Source of the DNA: an uncultured Parasphingopyxis sp.
GTDB lineage: Bacteria > Pseudomonadota > Alphaproteobacteria > Sphingomonadales > Sphingomonadaceae
DNA: 64,000 nucleotides
Direction of reading: 5' to 3'
NCBI RefSeq assembly: GCF_937129435.1
Contig: NZ_CAKZNF010000024.1
Location: 45,178 to 109,177 of the forward strand
This document shows, piece after piece, positions 7,253 through 41,969 of the stretch. Position numbers and translations under genes: made by a program. Each line of letters starts with the position of its first letter. Position 1 is the stretch's first letter. The notes below the pieces were generated by a model, which was not told where the DNA came from, ran no database searches, and saw only the letters and a program-made list of their open reading frames with translations.

Positions 7253-8500
7253 ATGCGAAAGACAGCCAATCGATTTCTGACCCTTGCGGCGGCCCCCTTA
7301 CTGGCCTGCGCGGCACCTCTCGACGCGCAAACAGGGAATATCGGGGCCTTGATGAACGCGCCGATCGCCATAGAGCGCGCGGCGCCCGTAACGTCGGTTC
7401 CGCTTGAACAGCGGGACGGCAAGTATTTTCTGGTCGCCTCTGTCGATGGCATAGAGCGCGAATTCGTGTTCGATACCGGCTCGCCGACGATCCTCTCGCG
7501 CGAATTGGCCGAGGCGCTGGAGCTCGAAATATTGGGGCAGAATACCGGAACGGACGCGCACGGTGCGGCCGTTACGATGGATATCGCTCGCACCGGGACG
7601 ATCGCACTCGGCGATATCGTGTTTCGCGATGTTCCCGTATTCGTTTACGATTTCGGCGCAATGCCCCTCGGCCGCTGCTTTTTCGATGGTGGCGTGCTGG
7701 GTTCGGAAATCTTTGCCGGCAGCGCCTGGCGGATCGACGCCGAAAACGGGCGGCTGGAGATCGCCGAGTCGACCGATGCCATCTCCATAGCCGATGATGC
7801 GTTGACGGCGCGGCTCCACGATATCGGATATCCGCATGCGCCGGTTGTCGACTATGCCATCGGTAGCCAGCACGACCGGGCGCTGTTCGACACGGGAAGT
7901 GAGGTGCCGCTGTCGCTCTATGCGCCGCTGTTGACGAATCCGGCGGTGGAAGATCGCCTGCACGCAGTCCAGCGCGGGCGGGGCTCGGAAGGCGTTTCGG
8001 CGGGCGGCCGCGGCGCGGTCGTGGATCTTGCGCGATTTCGTCTTTCTCGTATCGCGCTAGGCGATTCCGGGATTTCGAATATCGGCGGAATCTCGCGGAG
8101 CGTTCCGCCCACATTGCTGGGTGCCGGTTTGCTCGATCGTTTCGTTGTCACGCTCGATTATCCGGGCGAGCGCTTCGTACTCGAATCCAGAGCCGTGCCT
8201 GCCAATACCCGTCCCGAACCCGGCTATCGGCTGGCCCTTGTGGACGATCGCGTCGAGGTTGTGCAGCTGTTCGAAGGTTCGGCGGCCGATGACGCCGGTC
8301 TGCGTCTCGAAGATCGCATTATCGGGATCGACGGCCGGGTCGTGGATGTTGCCGGGGAGCAGGATCTGTGTGCCCTTGTGCGTTTCGTTTCCGGCCGGCC
8401 TTTCGAAGCGCGTGCCCTGTCACTGGAAATCGATCGCGACGGAAGCACCGTGTCGCTCAGAATTCCGGCGCCGGAGAGCCCTGCCGGCGCTGCGCGGTGA
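7253..8500 (+). CDS. Exported two-lobed retropepsin-like aspartyl protease with PDZ domain
   Basis: 415 residues. An N-terminal signal sequence ends near AAPLDA. Two DTG active-site motifs follow: FVFDTGSPT (Asp74) and ALFDTGSEV (Asp213). Each is followed by a retropepsin-type LG element (GVLGSEIF; TLLGAGLLDRF). A PDZ domain (GSAADDAGLRLEDRIIGIDG) fills residues ~318-400. Having both aspartates in one chain suggests an internally paired active site rather than a homodimer. Substrate is unknown; periplasmic or membrane-surface action is inferred from the signal peptide. Confidence 0.82.
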   Translation: MRKTANRFLTLAAAPLLACAAPLDAQTGNIGALMNAPIAIERAAPVTSVPLEQRDGKYFLVASVDGIEREFVFDTGSPTILSRELAEALELEILGQNTGTDAHGAAVTMDIARTGTIALGDIVFRDVPVFVYDFGAMPLGRCFFDGGVLGSEIFAGSAWRIDAENGRLEIAESTDAISIADDALTARLHDIGYPHAPVVDYAIGSQHDRALFDTGSEVPLSLYAPLLTNPAVEDRLHAVQRGRGSEGVSAGGRGAVVDLARFRLSRIALGDSGISNIGGISRSVPPTLLGAGLLDRFVVTLDYPGERFVLESRAVPANTRPEPGYRLALVDDRVEVVQLFEGSAADDAGLRLEDRIIGIDGRVVDVAGEQDLCALVRFVSGRPFEARALSLEIDRDGSTVSLRIPAPESPAGAAR

Positions 8501-29621: not shown

Positions 29622-30053
29622 TCAGTTCATGCGATGCCCGTTCGGAGGCAATTCAAGGCTTTTACGGAAGGCTTGTGCATCATCCGTGGACTGTTTCATC
29701 GCCTTGCGAAAAAGCTTTGTAAGTTCGGCTCGAAGATCATCCTTGCCGTGCCAGTCCTCCTCATCCAGATGAACCAGCGCGGAAAGAACATCACCGGGAT
29801 AATAATCACCTTCAATCAGAGGATCGAGCCGAAGCCGTTCGATTGCTAGCTCCAACAAGTAGGGCAAGCTGACCTTTTGACCGATTGCAAGGCGCACCTC
29901 TCCATCTGAAAGAGTGTGGAGAGGTTTGCGGCGAAGAGCCAGGACACGCCCAATCATTGGCGTTTCTGCCGTTTCTGGATCACCCCAATCTTCCCCTTCT
30001 AACTCTTGAAGGGTTTTGAATCGGTCGATGTGATTCGAAGTGGACACGGCCAA
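29622..30053 (-). CDS. CdiI-like contact-dependent inhibition immunity protein (orphan)
   Basis: 143 residues with the pattern I associate with the CdiI_3 immunity family: LQELEGEDWGDP near the start, KPLHTLSDGEVRLAIGQKVSLPYLLELAIERL in the middle, and DPLIEGDYYPGDVLSALV after it. No cdiA, toxin tip or cdiB lies nearby. Such orphan immunity genes can protect against toxins of neighbours. It sits in a decayed region with a lower GC content than its flanks, in keeping with acquisition. Confidence 0.7.
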   Translation of the reverse strand: MAVSTSNHIDRFKTLQELEGEDWGDPETAETPMIGRVLALRRKPLHTLSDGEVRLAIGQKVSLPYLLELAIERLRLDPLIEGDYYPGDVLSALVHLDEEDWHGKDDLRAELTKLFRKAMKQSTDDAQAFRKSLELPPNGHRMN

Positions 30054-30204
30054 ATACCTACAACAGTGGTGAACGACCGCAATTGGGTCGTTAGCAGACT
30101 GTCCGATTTGATGACGAATGCAGATTGCGGTCTCGGCGCCGGGATTTGGCTCCGGTTCGGAAAATTTCTGTCCTACACCACCAAATTCTGTTTCATCCTA
30201 TTGG

Positions 30205-30714
30205 ATGAAGCACACTCCCTCTCCCACAAACCCACCCGCTCCCCATCCGCGCACGGCCGCCGCGCAACCGCACCGCGTCCGTAGCATCCCCGCCTTCGCG
30301 CCCGTGCCGGTTCGCGCGCGGACCGATGGGTGGACGGGGGCGCGGCAGGCGACGTTTATCGGCTGGCTGGCGGAGACGCGGTGTGTGGCGACAGCGGCGG
30401 CGCGGGCCGGGATGAGCCGGGAGAGCGCCTATCGGCTGCGGCGGCATGAGGGGGCCGAGGGGTTTCGGCTGGCATGGGACGCGGCGCTCGGCGATATAGA
30501 GGCGGCGGCCGCGCTCCGGCGGAAGGTCACACTCGACGAGGCGTTTTCGCGGGTCCGGACGGGCGTTTGGCGGCCGGTGATGCGTGCCGGGCGCTTCTCC
30601 CATGCCGTGCACGAAGCCGACAAATCCGCGCTTTTTCGCGCCCTGTCGCATATCGATCGGGTCGCCGAGGGGCGGTTGCGCGCCGGCAATCCGTTGCGGG
30701 GTTTCGGGGCGTGA
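30205..30714 (+). CDS. Small basic protein with helix-turn-helix-like segment
   Basis: 169 residues from ATG 30205 (MKHTPSPTNPP); the longer track start adds an unlikely leader. After a Pro-rich region the core reads GWTGARQATFIGWLAETRCVATAAARAGMSRESAYRLRRHEGAEGF, which looks like a resolvase or TetR-type helix-turn-helix. The remainder is helical and basic. I have seen this type as an uncharacterised protein in sphingomonads but do not know its role. REP-like repeats follow. Confidence 0.6.
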   Translation: MKHTPSPTNPPAPHPRTAAAQPHRVRSIPAFAPVPVRARTDGWTGARQATFIGWLAETRCVATAAARAGMSRESAYRLRRHEGAEGFRLAWDAALGDIEAAAALRRKVTLDEAFSRVRTGVWRPVMRAGRFSHAVHEADKSALFRALSHIDRVAEGRLRAGNPLRGFGA

Positions 30715-31452: not shown

Positions 31453-31890
31453 TTTGCCGTCGCACAGGGCATGGAGCTTGGAGTTCAGCCCGCCCCTGGT
31501 GCGCCCGATACGTCGAGGAAGACCACCCTTTTAGAAGGCTCGCCGCCGTGCGGTGTGCCTTGGGTGGCATCGATCATGATCGCATCGGGCTCCCCTGCCT
31601 CGCCCGCCAGTTCGGCGAAGATGCGGTTGAACACGCCCATTTTGCTCCAACAGATGAGCCGGTCGTAGATGGTCTTGTGCGGCCCGTAACCCTTGGTGCA
31701 TCGCGCCACATCAGGCCGTGCTTGTGACGTAGACCATCTCCGATACGATCCGCCGGTCGTCGACCCTCGGGATGCCATGCGACAACGGGAACAACGGCTC
31801 GATCCGGCGCATCTGCGCACGGCTCAGCATAAACGGAACATGCATCGGTAGCGCTTCTTCGACACCGTCCTTGGATCAACCTATCCTCTA
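31453..31890 (-). mobile_element. Relic of an IS5-family transposase gene
   Basis: On the minus strand the pieces MLSRAQMRRIEPLFPLSHG, HGLMWRDAP, YGPHKTIYDRLICWSKMGVFNRIF and GRTRGGLNSKLHALCDGKGRP are recognisable IS5 transposase blocks, but at least two frameshifts separate them and the DDE C-terminal half is gone. The relic ends where the tetR fragment begins. AGGTCCTGAGCCTAGGA just left of 31930 may be part of the old terminal repeat. Confidence 0.8.
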
Positions 31891-32011
31891 TCATGCAAGC
31901 TAATTAATAGGTCCTGAGCCTAGGACTTTTGCCGAATTTCGGAAAGGCTGGCGGAGAGGGTGTCCGCCATACTGGCGGCTCAAAGCTGGGATAGCGGGCG
32001 CGAACATACGT

Positions 32012-32030
32012 CGACCCCTGATCTAACCCC
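32012..32030 (+). promoter_or_regulatory. Left copy of end-specific repeat (possible integrase arm site)
   Basis: CGACCCCTGATCTAACCCC at 50 bases inside the left attachment repeat matches CGACCCCTGATATAACCCC at 41735-41753 in 18 of 19 positions, same orientation. Nothing similar was noticed elsewhere in the window. Integrase or Xis arm-binding is an inference from the location. Confidence 0.45.
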
Positions 32031-32226
32031 CCGAAAAACAATTGGGTACGAACTCAGCGAACCACTCTTGCCAACATTGAGGCCGACGCTCATACGAGCA
32101 GAGTTGTGCAGTCGGAAGCGTTAGGAGGCAACCGCAGGGACTGCTTAAAAAACTGAAATGTCTCCGATGCTGGCCTTATGCGTGGTTTTCGGCTCATCAA
32201 GAGGTCCGCGCACGATAGAGGAGGAT

Positions 32227-32355
32227 ATGCTTATGCATTTCACCTTTTCCATCGAAGCCGGCCAGTCCAGCGGCACATCGTTCCGCTTGGCCTTGGGAAT
32301 TTCGGTTCCCGTTGGTCTGGTATGGGCGGTGTGCAGTTTTTTTGGACTGTCCTGA
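32227..32355 (+). CDS. 42-residue membrane peptide with strong RBS and terminator
   Basis: ATG 32227 follows AGGAGG at four bases, one of the best ribosome binding sites in the window, and the gene is followed within six bases by a near-perfect terminator. The peptide is MLMHFTFSIEAGQ... with one hydrophobic C-terminal helix (LALGISVPVGLVWAVCSFFGL). It lies at the left end of the satellite. The longer track start at 32158 is not needed. Unknown family; the complete small transcription unit argues that it is real. Confidence 0.6.
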   Translation: MLMHFTFSIEAGQSSGTSFRLALGISVPVGLVWAVCSFFGLS

Positions 32356-32360
32356 TGATT

Positions 32361-32391
32361 GGGGCGTCTCGGCAACGAGACGTCCCTTTTT
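32361..32391 (+). terminator. Rho-independent terminator of the small membrane peptide gene
   Basis: GGGGCGTCTCG, loop GCAA, CGAGACGTCCC, then TTTTT. One mismatch at the base of an 11-bp stem and a UUUUU tail make this a textbook terminator. It touches the convergent HicA-like gene stop. Confidence 0.85.
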
Positions 32392-32680
32392 ATGTGGCCT
32401 GTCGTTGCGATCCTAACAATTTTTCGTAGCCCTTCTGATCTAGGGTGCAATCGACAAGCTCCAAAAATTTCTTTTTTGGAAGCTTGATCTGCCGAGCCAT
32501 TACGGTGAGCAAAGAATCATCGATATCCTTGTGCTGCGTGCCATGACTGAGCTTCGTCCTCTTAGTCGTTTTTCGCCCGCTAAGATCATGGTATATATAG
32601 TAGGAATGATCGTTCTCGCTCTTTTTGAATCCCTTTTTTTGTAGCGCCTTATCAATGTCTCTTCTCTTACGCTGCGCCAT
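32390..32680 (-). CDS. HicA-like small protein (possible RNA-binding toxin)
   Basis: 96 residues, very basic. RRDIDKALQKKGFKKSENDHSYYIYHDLSGRK resembles the HicA/YcfA dsRBD-like fold, with a His where HicA has its catalytic one. The second half (TKLSHGTQHKDIDDSLLTVMARQIKLPKKKFLELV) is longer than in classical HicA. No HicB antitoxin follows. It overlaps the upstream 353-residue gene by 14 bases, so the two are made together. GC is clearly lower than in the core genes. Confidence 0.58.
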   Translation of the reverse strand: MAQRKRRDIDKALQKKGFKKSENDHSYYIYHDLSGRKTTKRTKLSHGTQHKDIDDSLLTVMARQIKLPKKKFLELVDCTLDQKGYEKLLGSQRQAT

Positions 32681-33728
32681 TTCCCCTCCCTAGGCGATTT
32701 AGCAATTTCTTCTTAAGACCGATGGCGTCCTTATCGAGCGCTTCATCTTCCGCCATGGCGTATTCAAGCCACAAGATTTTAAGGTCCGACAATATCTCGT
32801 CGCGAATTTTTTCGTATGAGCTTGATATCACATCAATACCAAGCTCTTCGTCCGAGTATACAAATATTCTATTTTGCCAATCAAACTCTACCGGAATTGA
32901 AAGAGGTTTATTAAAAAATATCTCCTCTTTATCAATATAAAACGATTTTATAGCGGGCAATGAAGGCTCAATTTCGCCGAGCAATTTAATATCAGAGAAT
33001 GAAGTGATATCACCCTTTTGGTCATAATTCGGATCGCCTACGACGCGCACACGCTTACGCACATTCGCCTGCAACCACGCCTCAATCTTCATGGGGTAAT
33101 CGAAGCGGACGGCGCGGTTTGCTCCCGGCTTAACGGTAATAATCGTCCGCTGATAATCGATAGTGTGGAGCTTTCCGACCAGTTCGTGCTCTTCGCTCTC
33201 CGGAAATTTCCCCTCGCGCAATCGCTCAATGATAACGCGCGCTCTGTCAGCCCTGAAACTAAATGGGCCGCGTTTGCCCGGCCTAATTGAGATCGTAAGC
33301 TCTTCATCATCAGGGGGAAGCAGCCCCTTGGCGGCATCGGCCATGAACCAACGCTCCCGCGCGTTGGGCAACATAGCGATCACACGTTCTTCTTCACCGC
33401 TGTCGAACGCTTTCAGCGTCTTCAGCAGCTCCTCACGCGCAACCAGTGTCTGGGTCGAAATATCACCTGTGTGCGAACACACACTTACGGGTTGAACATG
33501 GCTCCCTTTTTCCGGCTCTCGGCAGACAACGGAGTATTCGCGCCGAACTTTCGCGGTCGGTCGTATACGCTGACCCAGTGCTCGGCCCTCTTTGCGCATT
33601 CCAATGATATGAACCATGCGTTGAAGGGCCCAAAGCGAGCTAATTACGGCTTCCGCTGGCGCGCCATCAAGGTTCCGGACTAGCTTTCCGGAAAACTTTA
33701 CCTGAATGTCGTTTGGATATTCTTCCAC
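32667..33728 (-). CDS. 353-residue unknown protein, partner of HicA-like gene
   Basis: I do not recognise the family. The chain is soluble and mixed alpha/beta. The segment VGKLHTIDYQRTIITVKPG...RVRVVGDPNYDQKGDITSFSDIKLL (about residues 165-250) has the alternation of an OB-like beta barrel. The C-terminus ends in a helical, charged stretch (DEALDKDAIGLKKKLLNRLGRG). It is the first gene of a two-gene unit with the HicA-like ORF, and its codon use and AT content differ from the phage genes beside it. It could be cargo for phage competition or defence. Confidence 0.75.
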   Translation of the reverse strand: MEEYPNDIQVKFSGKLVRNLDGAPAEAVISSLWALQRMVHIIGMRKEGRALGQRIRPTAKVRREYSVVCREPEKGSHVQPVSVCSHTGDISTQTLVAREELLKTLKAFDSGEEERVIAMLPNARERWFMADAAKGLLPPDDEELTISIRPGKRGPFSFRADRARVIIERLREGKFPESEEHELVGKLHTIDYQRTIITVKPGANRAVRFDYPMKIEAWLQANVRKRVRVVGDPNYDQKGDITSFSDIKLLGEIEPSLPAIKSFYIDKEEIFFNKPLSIPVEFDWQNRIFVYSDEELGIDVISSSYEKIRDEILSDLKILWLEYAMAEDEALDKDAIGLKKKLLNRLGRGNGAA

Positions 33729-33813
33729 GATTTGCCCGGTGCCTAGCCCCTCGAAAAGCGGCTATCGCAAGAAAGTATTAAAATGTCTATTGACGCGCCA
33801 TGCGACGCGTCAC

Positions 33814-34242
33814 CTAGCCCTGCGGCGCGACGCGCGGCGATCCCTTCACTGCCACGGCCGCAATCGGCGTCCCCGTTCCGTGGGCGCCGGAGAAATCGGC
33901 GAGCAGCTGTAGGTAGCGGAGATTGCCCTTGTAGCCGAAGCGATAGCTCGCCGGATCGGCGTGTTCTTCGTTCAGCGTCATGATGATGCCGTCCGCGATG
34001 CCCTCCATGCCGATCATGTCGGCGTCGGTGACGGCCTCATAGGCCTGCCCGTCTTCGGAGTGCGTCAGAACGAACTCAATCTTGTTCGCGCCGTCGAAGA
34101 CAATGCCGCCTTCGCCGATGGCGAGGATGATTTCCGCCGCCTTGAAGCCCGATAGGTCCACGGCGACCGGCACGTTGTCCGCATCCAGCGTGGCGTTGCC
34201 GATGAGCGTTTCGACGGCGATGTTCGAGTGCAAATCCTTCAT
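33814..34242 (-). CDS. Putative capsid-associated (head/decoration-type) phage protein
   Basis: 142 residues, 24 bases after the capsid gene. It starts MKDLHSNIAVETLIGNATLDADN and has repeated beta-strand segments (VPVAVDLSGFKAAEIILAIGEGG; SYRFGYKGNLRYLQLLADF; GTPIAAVAVKG). Proteins of this sort follow HK97 capsid genes in many alphaproteobacterial prophages. Decoration or head-tail joining is inferred from position. Confidence 0.65.
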   Translation of the reverse strand: MKDLHSNIAVETLIGNATLDADNVPVAVDLSGFKAAEIILAIGEGGIVFDGANKIEFVLTHSEDGQAYEAVTDADMIGMEGIADGIIMTLNEEHADPASYRFGYKGNLRYLQLLADFSGAHGTGTPIAAVAVKGSPRVAPQG

Positions 34243-34266
34243 GGGGATATCCTTTCGGTGTCGCCG

Positions 34267-35472
34267 TTACGCGGCGGAGAATTTCAGGAACTTGATGGCG
34301 TTCGTGTCCAGTGGAGCGCCGCCCGTGCGCTTCGAGAAATAGAACTTGGTCCAGCCCTTCTTCGTGACGTTGTCGCGAATGAGGGACATGCCGGGCCGGT
34401 CCACGATGGCGTAGCCGCGCTTCCAGTTGCCGAAGGCGATGGCGAGAGCGCCCGCCTCGATATCGGGCATGCTCTCGTCGATCCCGACCGGATAGCCGAG
34501 CAGCCGCGCAGGTTCGCGGGCGTCGAGAGCCTCTCTCCACAGCAGCCTTCCGTCACCATCTCTAAACTTCATTACGATGCTCGCGGTCAGTGAGTTCATA
34601 AGCCAGCCTACACCTTGACCCGATCGGTAGGGCGCGGGCAGCGAGAAGATGAGGTCGATCAGGTTGTTCTGGAAACCGCCGTCGCCATCGGCGAGGAAAT
34701 CGCCGTCCACGCCCGAAACGACATGCTGATAGGTGCCGAAGGCGCGAACCGCATCCGCCTCGTCAGTGGTGGCGCGATGCACCAGGCCGAGCGGCTTCTT
34801 CACGCCGTCGCCGCCGATGAACGCTTCGTTCTCGGCCAACACGAACTCCGCCGCCACATCTTCGTCGAGAAAGGCTTTGAGGTCGAAGCTGCTGTCGTCG
34901 AGAATAAAATTCGTGATTTCTGGGATGGCATATACTTCGCTGGGCGTAATTTCGACTGCTCCCAGAACGGGCGTGTCGGTGTCTTCGCGGGTCTCCAATT
35001 CGTGAGCCCATCGGGACGATCCGCCCGTGCGCTTGACGATTTTACGCCAGCTTCCCGATCCTTTGCCGAGCGTGACCACGGTGGCCATGCTGCGTAGAGG
35101 AGAGCGGTCTCGCAGAAGCGACATGATCGCTCCGTCCACCTGCGTCGGGACGGTGAAGCCGCCATCGGGATCGGAGCCGATCTCCATCGCCGCCTGCGGC
35201 GCGCCACGGAGCGCCGAAACGAACTGGGAGCGGACCTCGCCGGTGAGGGGATCGAAACCGGACGGGCCGTTGCTTTGGTTTGCGAGCCGATCAGAAAAAT
35301 TGTTGAGCGCCGTTTCGGCGTTGTCCATCGCCGTTTCGATTTCCGTGATCCGGCGCGCGTGATCGGTGCGAATTTCTTCGACCGCGGCGTTGATGCGCTG
35401 GACGAGAGCCTTGGGATCGACCTCGGCGTGGACGGTGCCGATCAGGGCGCGGGGGACATTGGGGTGAAGCAC
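34267..35472 (-). CDS. HK97-family major capsid protein
   Basis: 401 residues. An N-terminal helical delta domain (AAVEEIRTDHARRITEIETAMDNAETALNNF) is followed by the HK97 core: GGFTVPTQVDGAIMSLLRDRSPLRSMATVV, the E-loop SGSWRKIVKRTGGSSRWAHE, then AFIGGDGVKKPLGL and the GVGWLMNSLTASIVMKFRDGDGRLLW segment. No separate protease or scaffold gene is present, so the delta domain may serve as scaffold. This is the only firm structural gene in the element. Confidence 0.9.
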   Translation of the reverse strand: MLHPNVPRALIGTVHAEVDPKALVQRINAAVEEIRTDHARRITEIETAMDNAETALNNFSDRLANQSNGPSGFDPLTGEVRSQFVSALRGAPQAAMEIGSDPDGGFTVPTQVDGAIMSLLRDRSPLRSMATVVTLGKGSGSWRKIVKRTGGSSRWAHELETREDTDTPVLGAVEITPSEVYAIPEITNFILDDSSFDLKAFLDEDVAAEFVLAENEAFIGGDGVKKPLGLVHRATTDEADAVRAFGTYQHVVSGVDGDFLADGDGGFQNNLIDLIFSLPAPYRSGQGVGWLMNSLTASIVMKFRDGDGRLLWREALDAREPARLLGYPVGIDESMPDIEAGALAIAFGNWKRGYAIVDRPGMSLIRDNVTKKGWTKFYFSKRTGGAPLDTNAIKFLKFSAA

Positions 35473-35566
35473 GGATCAACTCCTCGGATTGGTTTCGAGG
35501 AGGGTCGTCCATCGCTTTTGGCGAAAATTGCATTTCTGCCAGCGATAGTAATAAAAACCGATAACC

Positions 35567-36151
35567 ATGTTCGACGGTGAAAATTCTGGTCAATACCCGC
35601 GAAGGGTCAAATCTCTGAGAGGGAAGGCTCGTTGGTTGGCGAGCGATGGGCATAGCTACAAATCAAAGACTGATGCCAAACGCGCTTCCAAAGGCACTCT
35701 AAAGAGAAGCTATGAGCAGTGGAATTCACGCCCAGAGGACAAAATTGCGCGTCCCGGTATGCTATCAATCGCATTGTCGTGTTTGGGGTCTGCGCTGTTG
35801 GCATTTGCAATCTATGCAATCGCCAACGGCACAATCTCGTCCAATTCGTGGATTCAATTGATCGGGATAATCACGTTTTCGATCTTGCTTCTCTATTGCA
35901 TCGCTATATTCGTTGTCTCAGTCCAAGCGATCTCGGCAGGCAAGGCTAGCGAGACCGATCTAGATCAAGAGTCAGAAAGCTTGGCTTGGGCTATCGGTTG
36001 CTTCAGTGTGATCGCTGTCATCGGTGTTGCTGGCCTCGCCAAGTTACCAGACCTATTTGAAGGCGTTTCCAGAGGCCAAACAATCATAGCGGTGCTTCTA
36101 TTCGCCATCCTCATGGCGCTCATCGCGTTGCTCGGAAAACACCGAACCTAG
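35567..36151 (+). CDS. Membrane protein of unknown function (satellite cargo)
   Basis: 194 residues on the strand opposite to the phage genes. A basic soluble N-terminus (RRVKSLRGKARWLASDGHSYKSKTDAKRASKG) precedes about four membrane helices (SIALSCLGSALLAFAIYAI; LIGIITFSILLLYCIAIFVV; AIGCFSVIAVIGVAGLA; IIAVLLFAILMALIALLG). GC is lower than its neighbours. The opposite orientation and own promoter region are typical of a lysogeny-expressed cargo gene, possibly superinfection exclusion, but no family is recognised. Confidence 0.65.
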   Translation: MFDGENSGQYPRRVKSLRGKARWLASDGHSYKSKTDAKRASKGTLKRSYEQWNSRPEDKIARPGMLSIALSCLGSALLAFAIYAIANGTISSNSWIQLIGIITFSILLLYCIAIFVVSVQAISAGKASETDLDQESESLAWAIGCFSVIAVIGVAGLAKLPDLFEGVSRGQTIIAVLLFAILMALIALLGKHRT

Positions 36152-36591
36152 GCCCGTAACTGTCGAATGTAGCGCTGCGATAGTCGCCGCTCTATTCGGT
36201 CAAGGATCGCTGCCAGTTCCACGCATTGGCCTTCCGGGGAGAGATACTGGCCAGAACGGGCTTCGAGGCGTTCGCGGCGCATCTTCATATAGTCGCCGTG
36301 GACATCGATCTCAGGACACGTCGCGAGCGTCACGAAGGGAGACGGAGCCACGTTGCGCTCAAGCTCCGTGAGCGCAGCGCTCAGGCGGTCGTCGGGATCG
36401 CTCGCCAAGTCGCGGCGCAATTCTTCGACTACGCGGCGGGCAATCTCTGTGCCGAGCGCGTGTGCCTTTGATTTGTCGGTTTCCATTTCGACGATCACCG
36501 CCGCCTCGCGAAGTGCGACTAGCTCCGCAGCGGGGCGTGCGGGCCGGGCCATCGCCATCACGGGGCTACGAAGGGCGCGAGGCGGGGTCAT
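36148..36591 (-). CDS. Unknown helical phage-type protein
   Basis: 147 residues; charged and mostly helical (EMETDKSKAHALGTEIARRVVEELRRDLASDPDDRLSAALTELERN) and ending ILDRIERRLSQRYIRQLRA. It overlaps the downstream cargo gene tail to tail by four bases and the upstream 68-residue gene by four bases (36588-36591). No domain recognised. Part of the satellite's minus-strand operon. Confidence 0.6.
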   Translation of the reverse strand: MTPPRALRSPVMAMARPARPAAELVALREAAVIVEMETDKSKAHALGTEIARRVVEELRRDLASDPDDRLSAALTELERNVAPSPFVTLATCPEIDVHGDYMKMRRERLEARSGQYLSPEGQCVELAAILDRIERRLSQRYIRQLRA

Positions 36592-36794
36592 TGATCCGGC
36601 ACCAAGGCAATCACATTGAAGCCTTTCAGGCTCTTGGTCATCTCGCGGGCCTTGGTCCGGGTGAACCCAGCGTCCATGAATGCGCGGTCCAGATCGCGAG
36701 GGCTCATGGGGCGGCTCACCTCGTCCAAAAGCTCAATTGCCAAGGCCCGGCTGTCACTTGGTGCGTTCACGAGTCTTTGAATTCCAGATTGCAT
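36588..36794 (-). CDS. Small unknown protein, possible winged-helix
   Basis: 68 residues: ALAIELLDEVSRPMSPRDLDRAFMDAGFTRTKAREMTKSLKGFNVIALVP has the helix pattern of a small winged-helix domain. It overlaps the next gene in the same operon. Regulation of the satellite is a possible role, not shown. Confidence 0.55.
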   Translation of the reverse strand: MQSGIQRLVNAPSDSRALAIELLDEVSRPMSPRDLDRAFMDAGFTRTKAREMTKSLKGFNVIALVPDQ

Positions 36795-36861
36795 GGTGAT
36801 GTCCTTACGCGCGCGGGCGCGCGAGTTGGTTTGCCGTTAATGGTGTTTGCATTTTTCATCC

Positions 36862-37191
36862 TCACCGCCGTCCGGTCGGGGAAGCCGGAAGCGTAAACTT
36901 TCGAGGCCCCCGGTCGTCAGGCTCCAGCCCGCATCCTTCCGGCACGGCCCAAGTGAAGCTCCGCATCACTGGATCCCAGCGCAGAGCCGGATCGCGTTTA
37001 AGTGAGCGGATCGTGCGCGAGGGGAGATGAGCGACTGCCCCGCGAAGCGCCCGGTGGCGTTGAGCGTTCTTTCGCCCGGCTCCCACAAGCCGCTTGTAGT
37101 CTACGCGAGGAGGATGGGTGCGCGGACAAAAGCCCTCGTGGATTGGGACGCCGTGCTTGGCGGCCCATGCGCGAAACTCACTGTATGTCAT
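36862..37191 (-). CDS. Unknown basic phage-type protein
   Basis: 109 residues starting MTYSEFRAWAAKHGVPIHEGFCP, strongly basic and rich in Arg (KRLVGAGRKNAQRHRALRGAVAHL). Likely nucleic-acid binding. It lies just beyond the repeat-rich stretch at 37212-37457. Confidence 0.5.
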   Translation of the reverse strand: MTYSEFRAWAAKHGVPIHEGFCPRTHPPRVDYKRLVGAGRKNAQRHRALRGAVAHLPSRTIRSLKRDPALRWDPVMRSFTWAVPEGCGLEPDDRGPRKFTLPASPTGRR

Positions 37192-37211
37192 CGGTGCCTC
37201 CTATCGAAGCG

Positions 37212-37457
37212 CGAACCTCCCTCGCTCCGGGGAGGGGGTTCGGAAGAAAGTGTGGTGTCTCGGTGACTTAGCTGGTGCCGAACCCCCCGAACCTCCCGAA
37301 CCGGGTTAACCCGAGAGAGGAGCTCGCCGCCTCTCCTGCTTCTCTCGCTATCGGCTTCTTTTAGAGAAAGAGGGGGTTCGGGGGGTTCGGAAGGCGAAAG
37401 ATCCAGCTTTTCCGGGCAAAAGCGCGAACCCCCTTGGCGGGGTTCGGAGGGGGTTCG
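37212..37457. repeat. Array of ten short CGAACCYCC repeats, possible replication origin
   Basis: Five copies read CGAACC(C/T)CC or close to it on the plus strand (37212, 37279, 37288, 37297, 37425) and five read GGGGGTTCG on it (37234, 37372, 37381, 37439, 37449). The perfect palindrome GGGTTAACCC lies at 37303-37312 and an AT-richer stretch (TTCTTTTAGAGAAAG) at about 37355-37370. The array fills the gene-free gap next to the primase-helicase gene, as iteron origins do in P4-like satellites. Confidence 0.6.
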
Positions 37458-37474
37458 ACGGGGGCGCGGAAGGA

Positions 37475-39505
37475 TCACATCGGCCTCCCATTGTCGCCTT
37501 GATCTGTTTGGCCCAGCACAACACGACGCGGCACTTCCTCGAAGGCCGATACCGACGCTCCCTCATCGCCCTTGACCCATGCGTGCTGCGGCGGTCCACC
37601 GAAGCGGAGTTTTGATTTCGGTCGTCGCCAGCCGATCTTTTGCATCGCTGAGCTGAGACGGACATTATGATCCTGGGTCCGCTTGCCGGCGTCCCCAAGG
37701 CCGACAGCCTCCCATATATCGCTCGCACGTATCTTACCCTCTAGGCCGTCGAGCCGCTCGCTAAGAAGCTCGTGCCACGGCTCTCGCACCTCACGCTGGC
37801 TTTGCTGAAGGCCAGCCGCTGACCATAAATTTTCAGGCAATCGGATCGGCTCACCATCAGCCTCGCGCATCGCCGCCTCGGCCCACAGTTGGTCGCGATC
37901 AGCCCGCAGCCTCTTGATGTCGAATTGAGAAACCTTCACCGGCCAAAAGCGGCGATTGCCGGTCATGTCGCGCAGATATTCATGATCGTTGGTCGTGCCG
38001 ATGAAGATCGATTGTCTCGGCTGTTCGGTCGTCATGCGGCCATAAGCCAAGCGAGCCTTATCGATGCGTCGGCTCAGCATGGATTTGACGTGCTCGATTT
38101 CGCCCCGCTTCATGCCTTTCAATTCTGCTAACTCAGCAAGCCAGCACCCGGCGATGCGTTCCATGAGCACCTTACTATCGGCGTCCAACGGCACGTCATC
38201 CGTGAACCAATCGTCCCGCACCGCCAGAACTCCGAGCGCGGTGCTTTTGTTCGTTCCTTGCGAGCTTTCGAGGACAAGCATCTCGTCATACTTGCATCCC
38301 GGCTTCCGCACCCGGCGCACCGCCGCGATCAGACAGATCGCGCCGACACTTCGCACATACTCGCTGTCTTCCGCGCCGCCATATTCGTGCAGCCAGCGGT
38401 CCAGTCGCTCGATGCCGTCCCATGTCAGCCCGTCCAGATACTCGCAGACCGGGTGACAAGAATTATCCCGTGCATGGTCGAGAACAATGTCGCAAAAGCG
38501 TTCCTTTGCGAACGCCAACAGAAACCGTTCCTCAATTGAGAGCCGCAGCCTCGTAAGCGCGGCGTCGTCGAGCGCCGGGCCGAAGCCCTCAAGCCCCGAC
38601 AAGAGATACCGATTGGCAAAAGTGTCATAGCTCACCGACACGCCGAGCATTTGCAAAGCACGACGCGCATTAGGTGGCGATCGATAGGGAATGTCGTTTT
38701 GATCGCGGTTGAAATCGTCGGCTTCCGATATCCAAGTGCCGCCGGTGACCGGCGGCGACTCCTCCACGATGGCCAAAAGGTCACCTTTGGTATTTCCTGC
38801 TTCGAGCCAATCGGTCACGTCGCCGTGTTCCGGGAGGCCGGGCAGCTCGATCACCTTTATCGAGCGCGCGACTGGGGCGAGGGCAGCGTAGATCGTGCGC
38901 GCCCGCTGCCGACCGCGATCATCGTTATCGACCATGATGACGACATCGCGGTCCGCGAAATATGAATTGAATTCGTCTTTCCAGTTGAGCGCACCGTTGG
39001 GATTGGTTGTCGCGTTCAGGCCTAGCGCGATCAGCGTGTCGGCATCTTTCTCACCCTCGACGATGAACACCGACCCATCGTCCGCAGCCGTCGCGGCGGT
39101 GAGCTTGTCGAGCGCGTAAAGCAGGTCGGGCGCGTCGCCCTTTCCCTTCAAAATGAGTGTCAGGCCGGGATAATTGTAGAAGGCACGTGGATCTTCGGCC
39201 TTCGCAATTTGAAGGTCGTTCGAGTTGTCGATCCGCCGCCCGATTACGAAGACCTTTTCACCATCAGGGCGTTGCCCCTTGAACACGAAGTAGGCATCGC
39301 GGCCATTGGCGTCGCAGTAGCGAAATTTGGCCTCTATGGTCGTGGCGCTATCCCACAAGGGCCTATCTGGATCGTCGTGCGAATAGGAGCCGGAAGGGGC
39401 TTTATTCTGAATTGTCGTTGGCGGAGAAGGATCGCGAGGGTTTTCATCGTCCCCTTCGGCGGCCCCGGATTCATCGTCCGGGGCCGTTTCCGTATCTCTA
39501 GACAT
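37475..39505 (-). CDS. TOPRIM primase fused to VapE-type helicase/ATPase
   Basis: 676 residues. The first part carries a TOPRIM domain: VFIVEGEKDADTLIALG with Glu150, then VVIMVDNDDRGR. The second is a virulence-associated-E (VapE) ATPase with the P-loop LESSQGTNKSTAL at ~412-424, where Asn replaces the usual Gly before Lys, and the FIGTTNDHEYLRDMTGNRRFWPV sensor block. It should prime and unwind the element's own origin. The neighbouring repeat array fits that role. The stop region of the upstream 156-residue gene overlaps its start. Confidence 0.85.
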   Translation of the reverse strand: MSRDTETAPDDESGAAEGDDENPRDPSPPTTIQNKAPSGSYSHDDPDRPLWDSATTIEAKFRYCDANGRDAYFVFKGQRPDGEKVFVIGRRIDNSNDLQIAKAEDPRAFYNYPGLTLILKGKGDAPDLLYALDKLTAATAADDGSVFIVEGEKDADTLIALGLNATTNPNGALNWKDEFNSYFADRDVVIMVDNDDRGRQRARTIYAALAPVARSIKVIELPGLPEHGDVTDWLEAGNTKGDLLAIVEESPPVTGGTWISEADDFNRDQNDIPYRSPPNARRALQMLGVSVSYDTFANRYLLSGLEGFGPALDDAALTRLRLSIEERFLLAFAKERFCDIVLDHARDNSCHPVCEYLDGLTWDGIERLDRWLHEYGGAEDSEYVRSVGAICLIAAVRRVRKPGCKYDEMLVLESSQGTNKSTALGVLAVRDDWFTDDVPLDADSKVLMERIAGCWLAELAELKGMKRGEIEHVKSMLSRRIDKARLAYGRMTTEQPRQSIFIGTTNDHEYLRDMTGNRRFWPVKVSQFDIKRLRADRDQLWAEAAMREADGEPIRLPENLWSAAGLQQSQREVREPWHELLSERLDGLEGKIRASDIWEAVGLGDAGKRTQDHNVRLSSAMQKIGWRRPKSKLRFGGPPQHAWVKGDEGASVSAFEEVPRRVVLGQTDQGDNGRPM

Positions 39506-39968
39506 TGGCGACCGCCCGGCGCTGGCCCGCCTTTTCGAGGGCGGTATCTACGCGAGCGGCGAGGTTGCGAACGTCGATCATCATCGTAAACGACACGAGG
39601 CCGCCATTGATGAATCCGCTATCGAAATTGAGGCCGTCGGTCGGCTGGATTGAAATCGCGCCGCTCTGAATTACGGTCATGGTGAGTTGGGGCGCGTCGG
39701 GATATTCGCGGACGGCGATCATGAACCGTTCGGCGATCCGAAGCGCGAGCGGCGATTTCATCCCGAAGTGCATCAGGTCATCGACCAGCATCATCATTCC
39801 CGCCTGCCTCGGCGAGAGGCAGCGGGCCTTTCCGAGTTGGGCCTTGTCGCCGCACACGGGACTGCCGGGGTTTTGCTCGAAGATGCCCTGTTTCTGGGGC
39901 CTCGTCATACGCAGCGCGTCGTCCATGACGCGCGGCAGGACTTCCGGGTGGGATTCAAAAATGGACAT
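39498..39968 (-). CDS. Unknown phage-type protein
   Basis: 156 residues: PRVMDDALRMTRPQKQGIFEQ, a Cys (PVCGDKAQLGKARCLSPRQAGMMMLVDDLMHFG), then beta-rich GAISIQPTDGLNFDSGFINGGLVSFTMMIDV. It overlaps the primase-helicase start by eight bases and is probably made with it. No family recognised. Confidence 0.6.
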   Translation of the reverse strand: MSIFESHPEVLPRVMDDALRMTRPQKQGIFEQNPGSPVCGDKAQLGKARCLSPRQAGMMMLVDDLMHFGMKSPLALRIAERFMIAVREYPDAPQLTMTVIQSGAISIQPTDGLNFDSGFINGGLVSFTMMIDVRNLAARVDTALEKAGQRRAVANV

Positions 39969-40079
39969 AAGACTTCTCCTTCCGAAGGCGGCTCTCGGCT
40001 GCGGCTATTTCAAAGCCGACAAGAAAAGCCGGTCGGTTTTTCAGATTGGGAGAGACGCTACGAGCGGATCGCCGACGCC

Positions 40080-40334
40080 TCACAGGGCGCAGGGGCGCTC
40101 CGGGCGTTCACGTTCAATGCGTTCGGCGGCTCTCTGGTCAAGCCAAGCGTGCACTTCCGCAGCCAGCCATCCCTTGGATCGGGAGGACAACTTGATGGGG
40201 TGCGGTAGACCTTCAGCTTCCATGAGGCGTTCTATTGCGTTGCGCGAAAGCCCCAAGAGTTGCTGTAATTCCTTTTGCCGGTAGATCAGCCGCGACGGGG
40301 GCGGCTCCATTTCGGCGGTGTCGAGATCGGACAT
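40080..40334 (-). CDS. AlpA-family phage regulator (excisionase-like HTH)
   Basis: 84 residues with LIYRQKELQQLLGLSRNAIERLMEAEGLPHPIKLSSRSKGWLAAEVHAWLDQR, the MerR-type winged helix of AlpA/DNA-binding regulators found in P4-like elements. It probably controls excision or the replication operon downstream. It is the first gene of the minus-strand operon; 150 bases without a gene separate it from the integrase. Confidence 0.85.
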   Translation of the reverse strand: MSDLDTAEMEPPPSRLIYRQKELQQLLGLSRNAIERLMEAEGLPHPIKLSSRSKGWLAAEVHAWLDQRAAERIERERPERPCAL

Positions 40335-40488
40335 GGCTGCATTCCTTCATTAAGGGGTGCCGAGGCACCAGGAAGGCGCTCGAAAGCGCGCAGCCCTTCA
40401 AGAATACCGAGCCTATTACAGTGTAAAGTGTTTTCTTTTCTGCATAATATCAGTGAGTTAGTGAAGAAGATTGCGAACTCGCTCCGAA

Positions 40489-41700
40489 TCACCCCGCAGT
40501 TCGGATCGGTTCGACGTTTTCGGCACGCGGCTCGATCACCTCGCAATAAGCCGCCCAGTCATCCATCAGCCGCCGCCGCTTCTCGAAAAGATCACCCCGG
40601 CGATAAGCCGCTTCGACAGCGTCGCTGATCGCATGGGCCAGCGCCATCTCGGCCACTGAATCGGGATAGCTGGTCCGCTCCGCCGCCCAATCGCGGAATG
40701 TCGAACGGAAACCGTGAGCGGTGATATCGGTCCGGTCCATCCTGCGAAGCACGGCCAAGAACGACATATTGCTGAGCGGCTTTCCCTTCGACTTGGGACT
40801 GATGAAGACGAAATCATTGCCGTCTTCGCGCGGAAGCTCCGACAGGATTTGGACGGCTCGCGCCGAAAGTGGGATGCGGTGTTCACGCCGTGCCTTCATC
40901 CGCTCTGCCGGAATCGTCCAAGTCCGCTGTTGCAGATCGATCTCACTCCAAGTCGCGCCGATAGTCTCACTAGTGCGGGCGGCGGTCAGAATAGTGAACT
41001 CGAATGCGCGGGCAGCCACACCCTCTCGCGCCCGTAGATCGTGCAGGAACATAGCTACATCGTCGAAAGGTAGGGCGGCGTGGTTCTTTACTCGCTTCAC
41101 CTTCGAGAGGGGCGCTAGCAGATGGTCGAGATTGCCCTTCAGTCGCGCCGGGTTTTCACCGGTGCGCAGCTTTCGAGCCTTTGCCCGATCCAGCACTTTT
41201 TCGATCCGCGACCGAACGCGCCCGGCTGTTTCAGACTTCGTGGTCCAGATCGGCTCTAGGACCGCATACACATCGTCGGTCGATATGTCGGCGACGCTCA
41301 TATCTCCGATTTTCGGAAATGCGTGCATCTCCAGCGAGGATCGCCACTGCTTCTCGCTCTTGTCGTTCGTCCAGCTGGGAGCGAGCGCCTTGATGCAATC
41401 TTCGGCCATCTCGCGAAACGTGGTTTGCTTCTTGCGACGCTTCGCTTGATTGCCTTTCCGCTCTTCGATTGGATCCACGCCCTCGCGCACGAGCTTGCGA
41501 AGAAGGACGGCTTGATCCCTCGCTTCGTCCAGCGTCACCAAGTCGAGCGGACCAATGCCCATCTCGCGCGGCTTCCCGTCGAACGAATATCGGAACTCCC
41601 ATCGCTTCGCCCCGGTCGGCGAAACGATCAGCCACAGGTTGCGGCCGTCGCCGTGTTTGCCCGGTTTGGCCTTGTCGATCCTCGTTTTAGTCAGCTTCAT
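40489..41700 (-). CDS. P4-type tyrosine recombinase (integrase)
   Basis: 403 residues from ATG 41700. The N-terminal DUF4102 arm domain (MKLTKTRIDKAKPG...KRWEFRYSFDGKPREMGIG) and core-binding region are followed by the catalytic domain with Arg242 (TAARTSE), His329 and Arg332 (HGFRSTFRDWA), His356 and Tyr366. All are present, so it should be active. It is next to the tRNA-Ser gene into which the element is inserted. Confidence 0.93.
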   Translation of the reverse strand: MKLTKTRIDKAKPGKHGDGRNLWLIVSPTGAKRWEFRYSFDGKPREMGIGPLDLVTLDEARDQAVLLRKLVREGVDPIEERKGNQAKRRKKQTTFREMAEDCIKALAPSWTNDKSEKQWRSSLEMHAFPKIGDMSVADISTDDVYAVLEPIWTTKSETAGRVRSRIEKVLDRAKARKLRTGENPARLKGNLDHLLAPLSKVKRVKNHAALPFDDVAMFLHDLRAREGVAARAFEFTILTAARTSETIGATWSEIDLQQRTWTIPAERMKARREHRIPLSARAVQILSELPREDGNDFVFISPKSKGKPLSNMSFLAVLRRMDRTDITAHGFRSTFRDWAAERTSYPDSVAEMALAHAISDAVEAAYRRGDLFEKRRRLMDDWAAYCEVIEPRAENVEPIRTAG

Positions 41701-41734
41701 TTGAACCGCCCTCCAGAGCAAGCCTGTGATCTAC

Positions 41735-41753
41735 CGACCCCTGATATAACCCC
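41735..41753 (+). promoter_or_regulatory. Right copy of end-specific repeat (possible integrase arm site)
   Basis: CGACCCCTGATATAACCCC, paired with the copy at 32012-32030. It lies between the integrase start and the tRNA, where integrase arm sites or the int promoter are expected. Confidence 0.45.
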
Positions 41754-41880
41754 TGATTTGTTCGGTAGTCTACAGGTAATTCGAGGGCGCTAGAGGCACA
41801 AGGCACACCGCAAATGGTTCAAAAAATCTCGGAAAACCGTGATCTAGAGGTCTGTTCGAGGATAGGAGCTATCGGGCAGG

Positions 41881-41969
<89 letters not shown>

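Follow-up and report, generated by a model that had tools for sequence, protein, structure and literature searches.

With high probability, a satellite-like island of about 9.9 kb, located at a tRNA-Ser gene, has its replication origin at 37212-37457. Coordinates are those of the window, the 64-kb piece of DNA that was analysed as a whole. The initiator would be the product of the adjacent gene, pri-rep, acting through winged-helix binding, opposed helicases, melting of a spacer and TOPRIM priming. The features on which this reading is built are as follows.

31949-31962, plus strand: other copy of the 14-bp attachment site, at the distal end of the island
34267-35472, minus strand: HK97-type major capsid protein (PF05065, E 1.8e-70; TIGR01554)
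35567-36151, plus strand: open reading frame (ORF) for a TM protein
37212-37457, no strand assigned: putative origin, with ten iterons in four blocks and a spacer of ~70 bp between them; the related loci L049 and L050 have a homologous, inverted origin
37212-37242, no strand assigned: block D, the outer pair 37237-37242 (minus) and 37212-37217 (plus)
37279-37302, plus strand: block C, three tandem iterons (37279, 37288, 37297) with a 9-bp step, opposed to block B
37303-37312, no strand assigned: palindrome GGGTTAACCC, adjoining block C
37345-37374, no strand assigned: AT-richer spacer abutting block B, a candidate melting site by inference from published PICI origins
37375-37389, minus strand: block B, two tandem iterons (37375, 37384) with a 9-bp step
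37425-37457, no strand assigned: block A, adjoining the primase stop, with iterons 37452-37457 (minus), 37441-37446 (minus) and 37425-37430 (plus)
37475-39505, minus strand: pri-rep, fused primase-helicase initiator of 676 aa, with a TOPRIM-like N-terminus, a VapE/SF3-like AAA+ helicase (357-572) and a C-terminal winged helix (~576-646)
39498-39968, minus strand: 156-aa ORF between alpA and pri-rep, without family match
40080-40334, minus strand: AlpA-type regulator/excisionase (PF05930, E 5.8e-10)
40489-41721, minus strand: tyrosine integrase
41881-41894, plus strand: attachment-site copy TGGCGGAGAGGGTG at the 3' end of tRNA-Ser

The repeat array and its island

The array sits directly 3' of pri-rep, in a 283-bp gap that extends from the primase stop (37475) to position 37191, where a potential ATG follows an AGGAGG. 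No family match was found over this gap, in agreement with the first-pass annotation, which had described it as non-coding and adjoining the primase-helicase gene. Ten copies of a CGAACC core (iteron consensus CCCGAACCCCC) occur within 37212-37457, five per strand. The plus-strand cores start at 37212, 37279, 37288, 37297, and 37425, and the minus-strand cores lie at 37237, 37375, 37384, 37441, and 37452. The first-pass annotation had counted ten copies of the longer word CGAACCYCC, five on each strand; the number and its even division hold for the core, but only eight of the ten copies (four forward and four reverse) match the longer word exactly. The exceptions are 37297, which reads CGAACCGGG, and 37441 on the minus strand, which reads CGAACCCCG.

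Beyond the eight array copies, CGAACCYCC does not occur in the 64-kb window. When the 283-bp gap was shuffled with its dinucleotide composition preserved, this word appeared 0.05 times on average and at most twice (2000 shuffles), and the CGAACC core, observed ten times, had a shuffle mean of 0.45 and a maximum of 4. The tandem 9-bp pair CGAACCYCCCGAACC has three occurrences in the 3.0-Mb genome, all of which are inside the array. The shuffles, together with the absence of the tandem pair from the rest of the genome, rule out a chance origin of the repeats.

Read outward from the primase stop, the array consists of block A, block B, the spacer, the palindrome GGGTTAACCC, block C, and block D. 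The inner copies are spaced exactly 9 bp apart (37279/37288/37297 and 37375/37384), a step that had not been noted previously, and inner blocks B and C point toward each other, which was likewise absent from the first-pass annotation. The palindrome that it had placed between the clusters is borne out at 37303-37312. The AT-richer patch that it had reported there exists but is modest: even at its richest, over the 30 bases 37345-37374 between the inner clusters, AT content reaches 53%, while the window as a whole has 38%. This spacer includes CTTTTAGAGAAAGAGGG, and its aligned counterpart in L049 is TTTTGTCGAAAAGAGGG.

The island that carries the array spans 31949-41894 and is bounded by a 14-bp direct repeat, one copy of which begins exactly at the 3' end of the tRNA-Ser (41881) and the second at 31949. 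Its minus-strand genes are, in order, the integrase, the AlpA-type gene, the 156-aa ORF, pri-rep and the array, two or three small ORFs, the HK97 capsid gene, a phrog_5707 protein, and a 353-aa ORF. Integrase, alpA, pri-rep and capsid thus share the minus strand, and the TM-protein ORF at 35567-36151 is on the plus strand. Family profile scans of the island ORFs recognised no large terminase or portal, and neither terS nor a capsid-redirecting PICI-gene family was recognised within the island. A weak small-terminase match lies outside the attachment repeats, at 30118-30714. No empty site was found in nine same-genus genomes, as they do not share the left flank. The island presumably excises and is a satellite.

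Several further observations concern these genes and their surroundings. The 353-aa ORF at the far end of the island (32667-33728) has a third-position GC of 0.53, compared with ~0.7 in its neighbours, and no family match; it is possibly foreign cargo or an unrecognised defence gene. The capsid protein encoded at 34267-35472 shares 37-47% identity with the product of a capsid gene in 194 of 301 family genomes, nearly always with one such gene per genome, which suggests that the latter is a conserved gene-transfer-agent capsid. Just outside the island, a CdiI_3-type immunity protein (PF18616, E 3.6e-22) is encoded at 29622-30053, and 31485-31820, a short way to the left of the 31949 attachment-site copy, gives a weak, below-cutoff match to an IS4/5-type transposase model.

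The initiator and related origins

Profile searches matched the helicase domain of pri-rep to VapE-like helicases (E 4e-70), and the TOPRIM-like N-terminal part gave weak profile matches. In the structure model, pLDDT is below 50 over residues 1-194 and the C-terminal half is confident, so interpretation is restricted to that half. There, the model predicts a winged helix, comprising helices at 576-585, 594-600, and 611-623, followed by strands up to 645; as modelled, the C-terminal segment is a winged helix. The top PDB structural match is staphylococcal PriRep1 with dsDNA (7pds, Foldseek E 6e-22), which is also the sole strong sequence match (E 5e-42), and the SaPI5 primase-helicase (7ola) was matched lower in the Foldseek list.

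A mechanism can be proposed on this basis. The C-terminal winged helix of pri-rep would bind the CGAACCCCC iterons, and the opposed tandem sets B and C, with their 9-bp step and aided by the outer copies, would assemble facing helicase rings across the spacer. The spacer would then melt next to block B, the helicases would load themselves, and the TOPRIM domain of pri-rep would prime synthesis on the excised circle. Binding, melting and helicase loading at the array are proposed here by analogy with known systems, and we infer that the array supports autonomous replication.

Related primase/helicase genes came from viral contigs as well as from members of the same family, order and class; a search for related loci over genome contigs gave one distant match. 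In 22 of 47 related genes, the stop is directly followed by an array of 8-mers that none of 100 dinucleotide shuffles equalled. The corresponding figure was 2 of 136 for control flanks, located downstream of other ORFs in these contigs. The other 25 genes have no array above all shuffles. One of these is L048, which alone among the relatives resembles pri-rep along its whole length (about 54-56% identity) and where 8100-8340 contains only degenerate GAAGCCG repeats, two opposed to two with a 9-bp step, that do not rise above shuffles. Many carriers of the module are viral contigs of 20-120 kb, and the module is therefore not confined to satellites.

Although the iteron words of the relatives vary widely (TGTAATCG, TGTAAGCG, GGTAACA, GAAACCG, CGTTCCCC, among others), the arrangement of opposed tandem sets flanking a spacer recurs. 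For adjacent same-strand copies, 9 bp is the commonest spacing (32 of 95 counted within 30 bp). When iteron positions in the window were matched with those of phage origins, the outcome was mixed, with p from 0.003 to 0.99 across loci; what is claimed across distant origins is therefore a shared plan, not base-exact spacing.

Two loci with a similar TOPRIM-side N-terminus, L051 and L053, carry a different helicase family (DUF5906). Opposed arrays of AGCGCGTGA or AGCGCTAGA, with 2 + 3 copies and a 9-bp step, lie 3' of these TOPRIM-DUF5906 primase-helicases (L051 7198-7345 and L053 7463-7610); they were recognised by eye, and their copy count is not above all shuffles. The two origin-like regions have in common an inner GATCGCCTATCCCCC-like box. 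Elsewhere, near a VapE-type primase gene, an array with a 65-66-bp period at L058 3247-4529, whose repeat contains CTCCCCGTGCGGGGGCGTGGATCGAAAC, looks like a CRISPR array.

In L049, the AAA+ core is 64% identical to that of the window. The plus strand of the window origin aligned with the L049 origin, taken in the direction of its own pri-rep, over 37211-37463 with a score of 77, an alignment that the iterons themselves help to drive. In the forward orientation, the score was 41, and shuffles reached at most 37. For L050, the inverted score was 64, against 30 forward, and since L049 and L050 are close relatives (AAA+ 93%), they amount to nearly one observation. Because the inverted orientation scores higher, the window origin is flipped relative to pri-rep when compared with L049 and L050. 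If inversion is tolerated, this would accord with a nearly symmetric origin. In a strict local alignment, each of the ten window iterons lies 0-6 bp from an L049 iteron on the same strand, with an offset of 0 for eight of them, and CGAACC of the window becomes CGTACC or CGTTCC in every aligned L049 copy (L049-type word: CGTACCCCC). A global alignment with very permissive settings was dropped for these origins, as it inflated identity and registered the iterons wrongly.

The AAA+ core is 53-68% identical to that of the window in 21 of the 23 compared relatives, and 48-49% in the other two, while identity in the winged helix drops to 19-52%. Iteron similarity correlates with winged-helix identity when AAA+ identity is controlled for (partial r 0.31, permutation p 0.0012, 17 loci), a correlation that shared ancestry may inflate. 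The rewriting of every repeat in relatives points to joint change of the repeats and of the protein by which they are read. A broader proposition stands at roughly even odds: that the fused primase-VapE helicase/origin cassettes of temperate phages and satellite-like islands follow one plan of opposed 9-bp-step blocks, in which the iteron word is rewritten in all copies along with the winged helix and the whole origin can be flipped against the gene, giving rise to new, mutually blind replication codes. The collected origins yield matched pairs, that is, homologous origins with all iterons changed at the same bases, plus changed winged helices. Such pairs make it directly testable how an initiator and ten scattered sites change specificity jointly, and the answer decides which elements can replicate side by side.

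Competing explanations

Other functions for the array fit the comparative data less well than an origin does. The repeats could be operators for a regulator, AlpA or pri-rep itself, that controls genes downstream of pri-rep while replication starts elsewhere. The possible downstream gene after the array (ATG at 37191 with AGGAGG) would suit such a role, and autoregulation is frequent among initiators. However, primase genes of unrelated phages and islands, with different genes downstream, are also followed by arrays of 8-17 copies, opposed tandem sets flanking a spacer suit initiators better, and the iteron words follow the winged helix of the helicase, all of which leaves an operator function with a slim chance. 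It is even more improbable, to the point of being hardly credible, that the array works in packaging (as a pac/cos-like site) or in partition/incompatibility of the island and is not its origin. Satellites do have packaging sites, and plasmid partition sites can be clusters of repeats, but neither a large terminase nor par genes were found in the island, and the site tracks the initiator gene, including on phage contigs of 20-120 kb.

A variant of the origin reading, rather than a contradiction of it, is that the origin was formerly functional and now belongs, in decayed form, to a defective island. The single capsid gene without a recognised large terminase or portal, several uncharacterised ORFs in the island, and, just beyond its left end, an IS-like ORF all point in this direction, and decay of the whole island is possible. 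Against this, the frames of pri-rep, alpA and the integrase are intact, and with eight of ten iterons exact, no decay is visible in the repeats. A decayed origin is rather unlikely. The array is best taken as the island's origin, read by pri-rep.

Comparison with known elements

The closest counterpart of this origin is the pri-rep-ori module of PICIs and SaPIs (EcCICFT073, SaPIbov1, SaPI5). In published PICIs, the origin directly follows a fused pri-rep gene and has an AT-rich spacer with an iteron set on either side (PMC6092414; PMC7581432). This pairing of iteron sets about an AT-rich region is invariable in E. coli PICIs, whose rep-ori segment maintains a plasmid (PMC6092414). The iterons recognised by the C-terminal domain of SaPI Rep lie immediately after the gene that encodes it (PMC7581432). 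The island likewise combines a primase with an initiator helicase, here fused, which matches the PriRep1 and SaPI5 structures and bears a C-terminal winged helix, and the origin lies immediately 3' of this gene as two iteron sets around an AT-richer spacer, albeit only 53% AT at its richest. Integrase and regulator (alpA, as in Gram-negatives) are upstream of pri-rep, with the replication genes on one strand and all three reading in one direction, and the attachment site is flanked by direct repeats (the 14-bp repeat at tRNA-Ser). The island differs in its HK97 capsid gene, its iteron sequence, and what appears to be an alphaproteobacterial-type host family. Moreover, the primases of SaPIbov1 and SaPI5 are AEP enzymes (PMC7581432), whereas the island's primase domain is TOPRIM-type.

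Other elements share parts of this plan. The gene set of capsid-forming PICIs (cfPICIs) includes an element-encoded capsid and packaging genes (terminase, portal/connectors). The island resembles them in having int, alpA, pri-rep and its own HK97 capsid in a PICI-like context, but they are cited at ~14 kb (PMC10803314), compared with ~9.9 kb here, where large terminase and portal were not recognised. PICMIs of Vibrio have in common with the island a minimal int-alpA-primase core (PMC10803314), which is seen, by reading, especially at L049 and L050 (int, AlpA-like ORF, pri-rep, origin). PICMIs, however, integrate beside fis, while the island is at tRNA-Ser, and iterons go unmentioned in the PICMI paper (PMC10803314). 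In SCCmec, the self-loading helicase Cch2 likewise uses its C-terminal domain to bind direct repeats (AAGTG) that lie downstream of the cch2 gene (PMC7581432), but there are only three 5-nt repeats, a separate polymerase-primase, and no AlpA or satellite context.

The first-pass annotation had likened the array to that of P4, whose alpha protein is a functional analogue in being a primase-helicase fusion initiator with its own origin. P4-like satellites are marked by alpha (PF03288), psu, sid, delta, and epsilon (PMC8628076). Pfam scans of the island ORFs found none of PF03288, PF07455, PF04606, and PF10554 (sid has no public profile), and TIGR01613 had no match. With these marker families (alpha, Psu, delta, epsilon) absent, a P4-like satellite was rejected under the published criteria (PMC8628076), and with a helicase of VapE type, P4 is not the best comparison. 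The earlier interpretation is thus partly supported: that the array is a replication origin with recognition repeats is well supported by the relatives and by the initiator's homologues, PriRep1 and the SaPI5 primase-helicase. In the literature searched, no described satellite was found in this bacterial family, in which a PICI-type pri-rep-origin with an element-encoded capsid is now placed. The best reading of the island's layout is the PICI pri-rep-ori type rather than P4.
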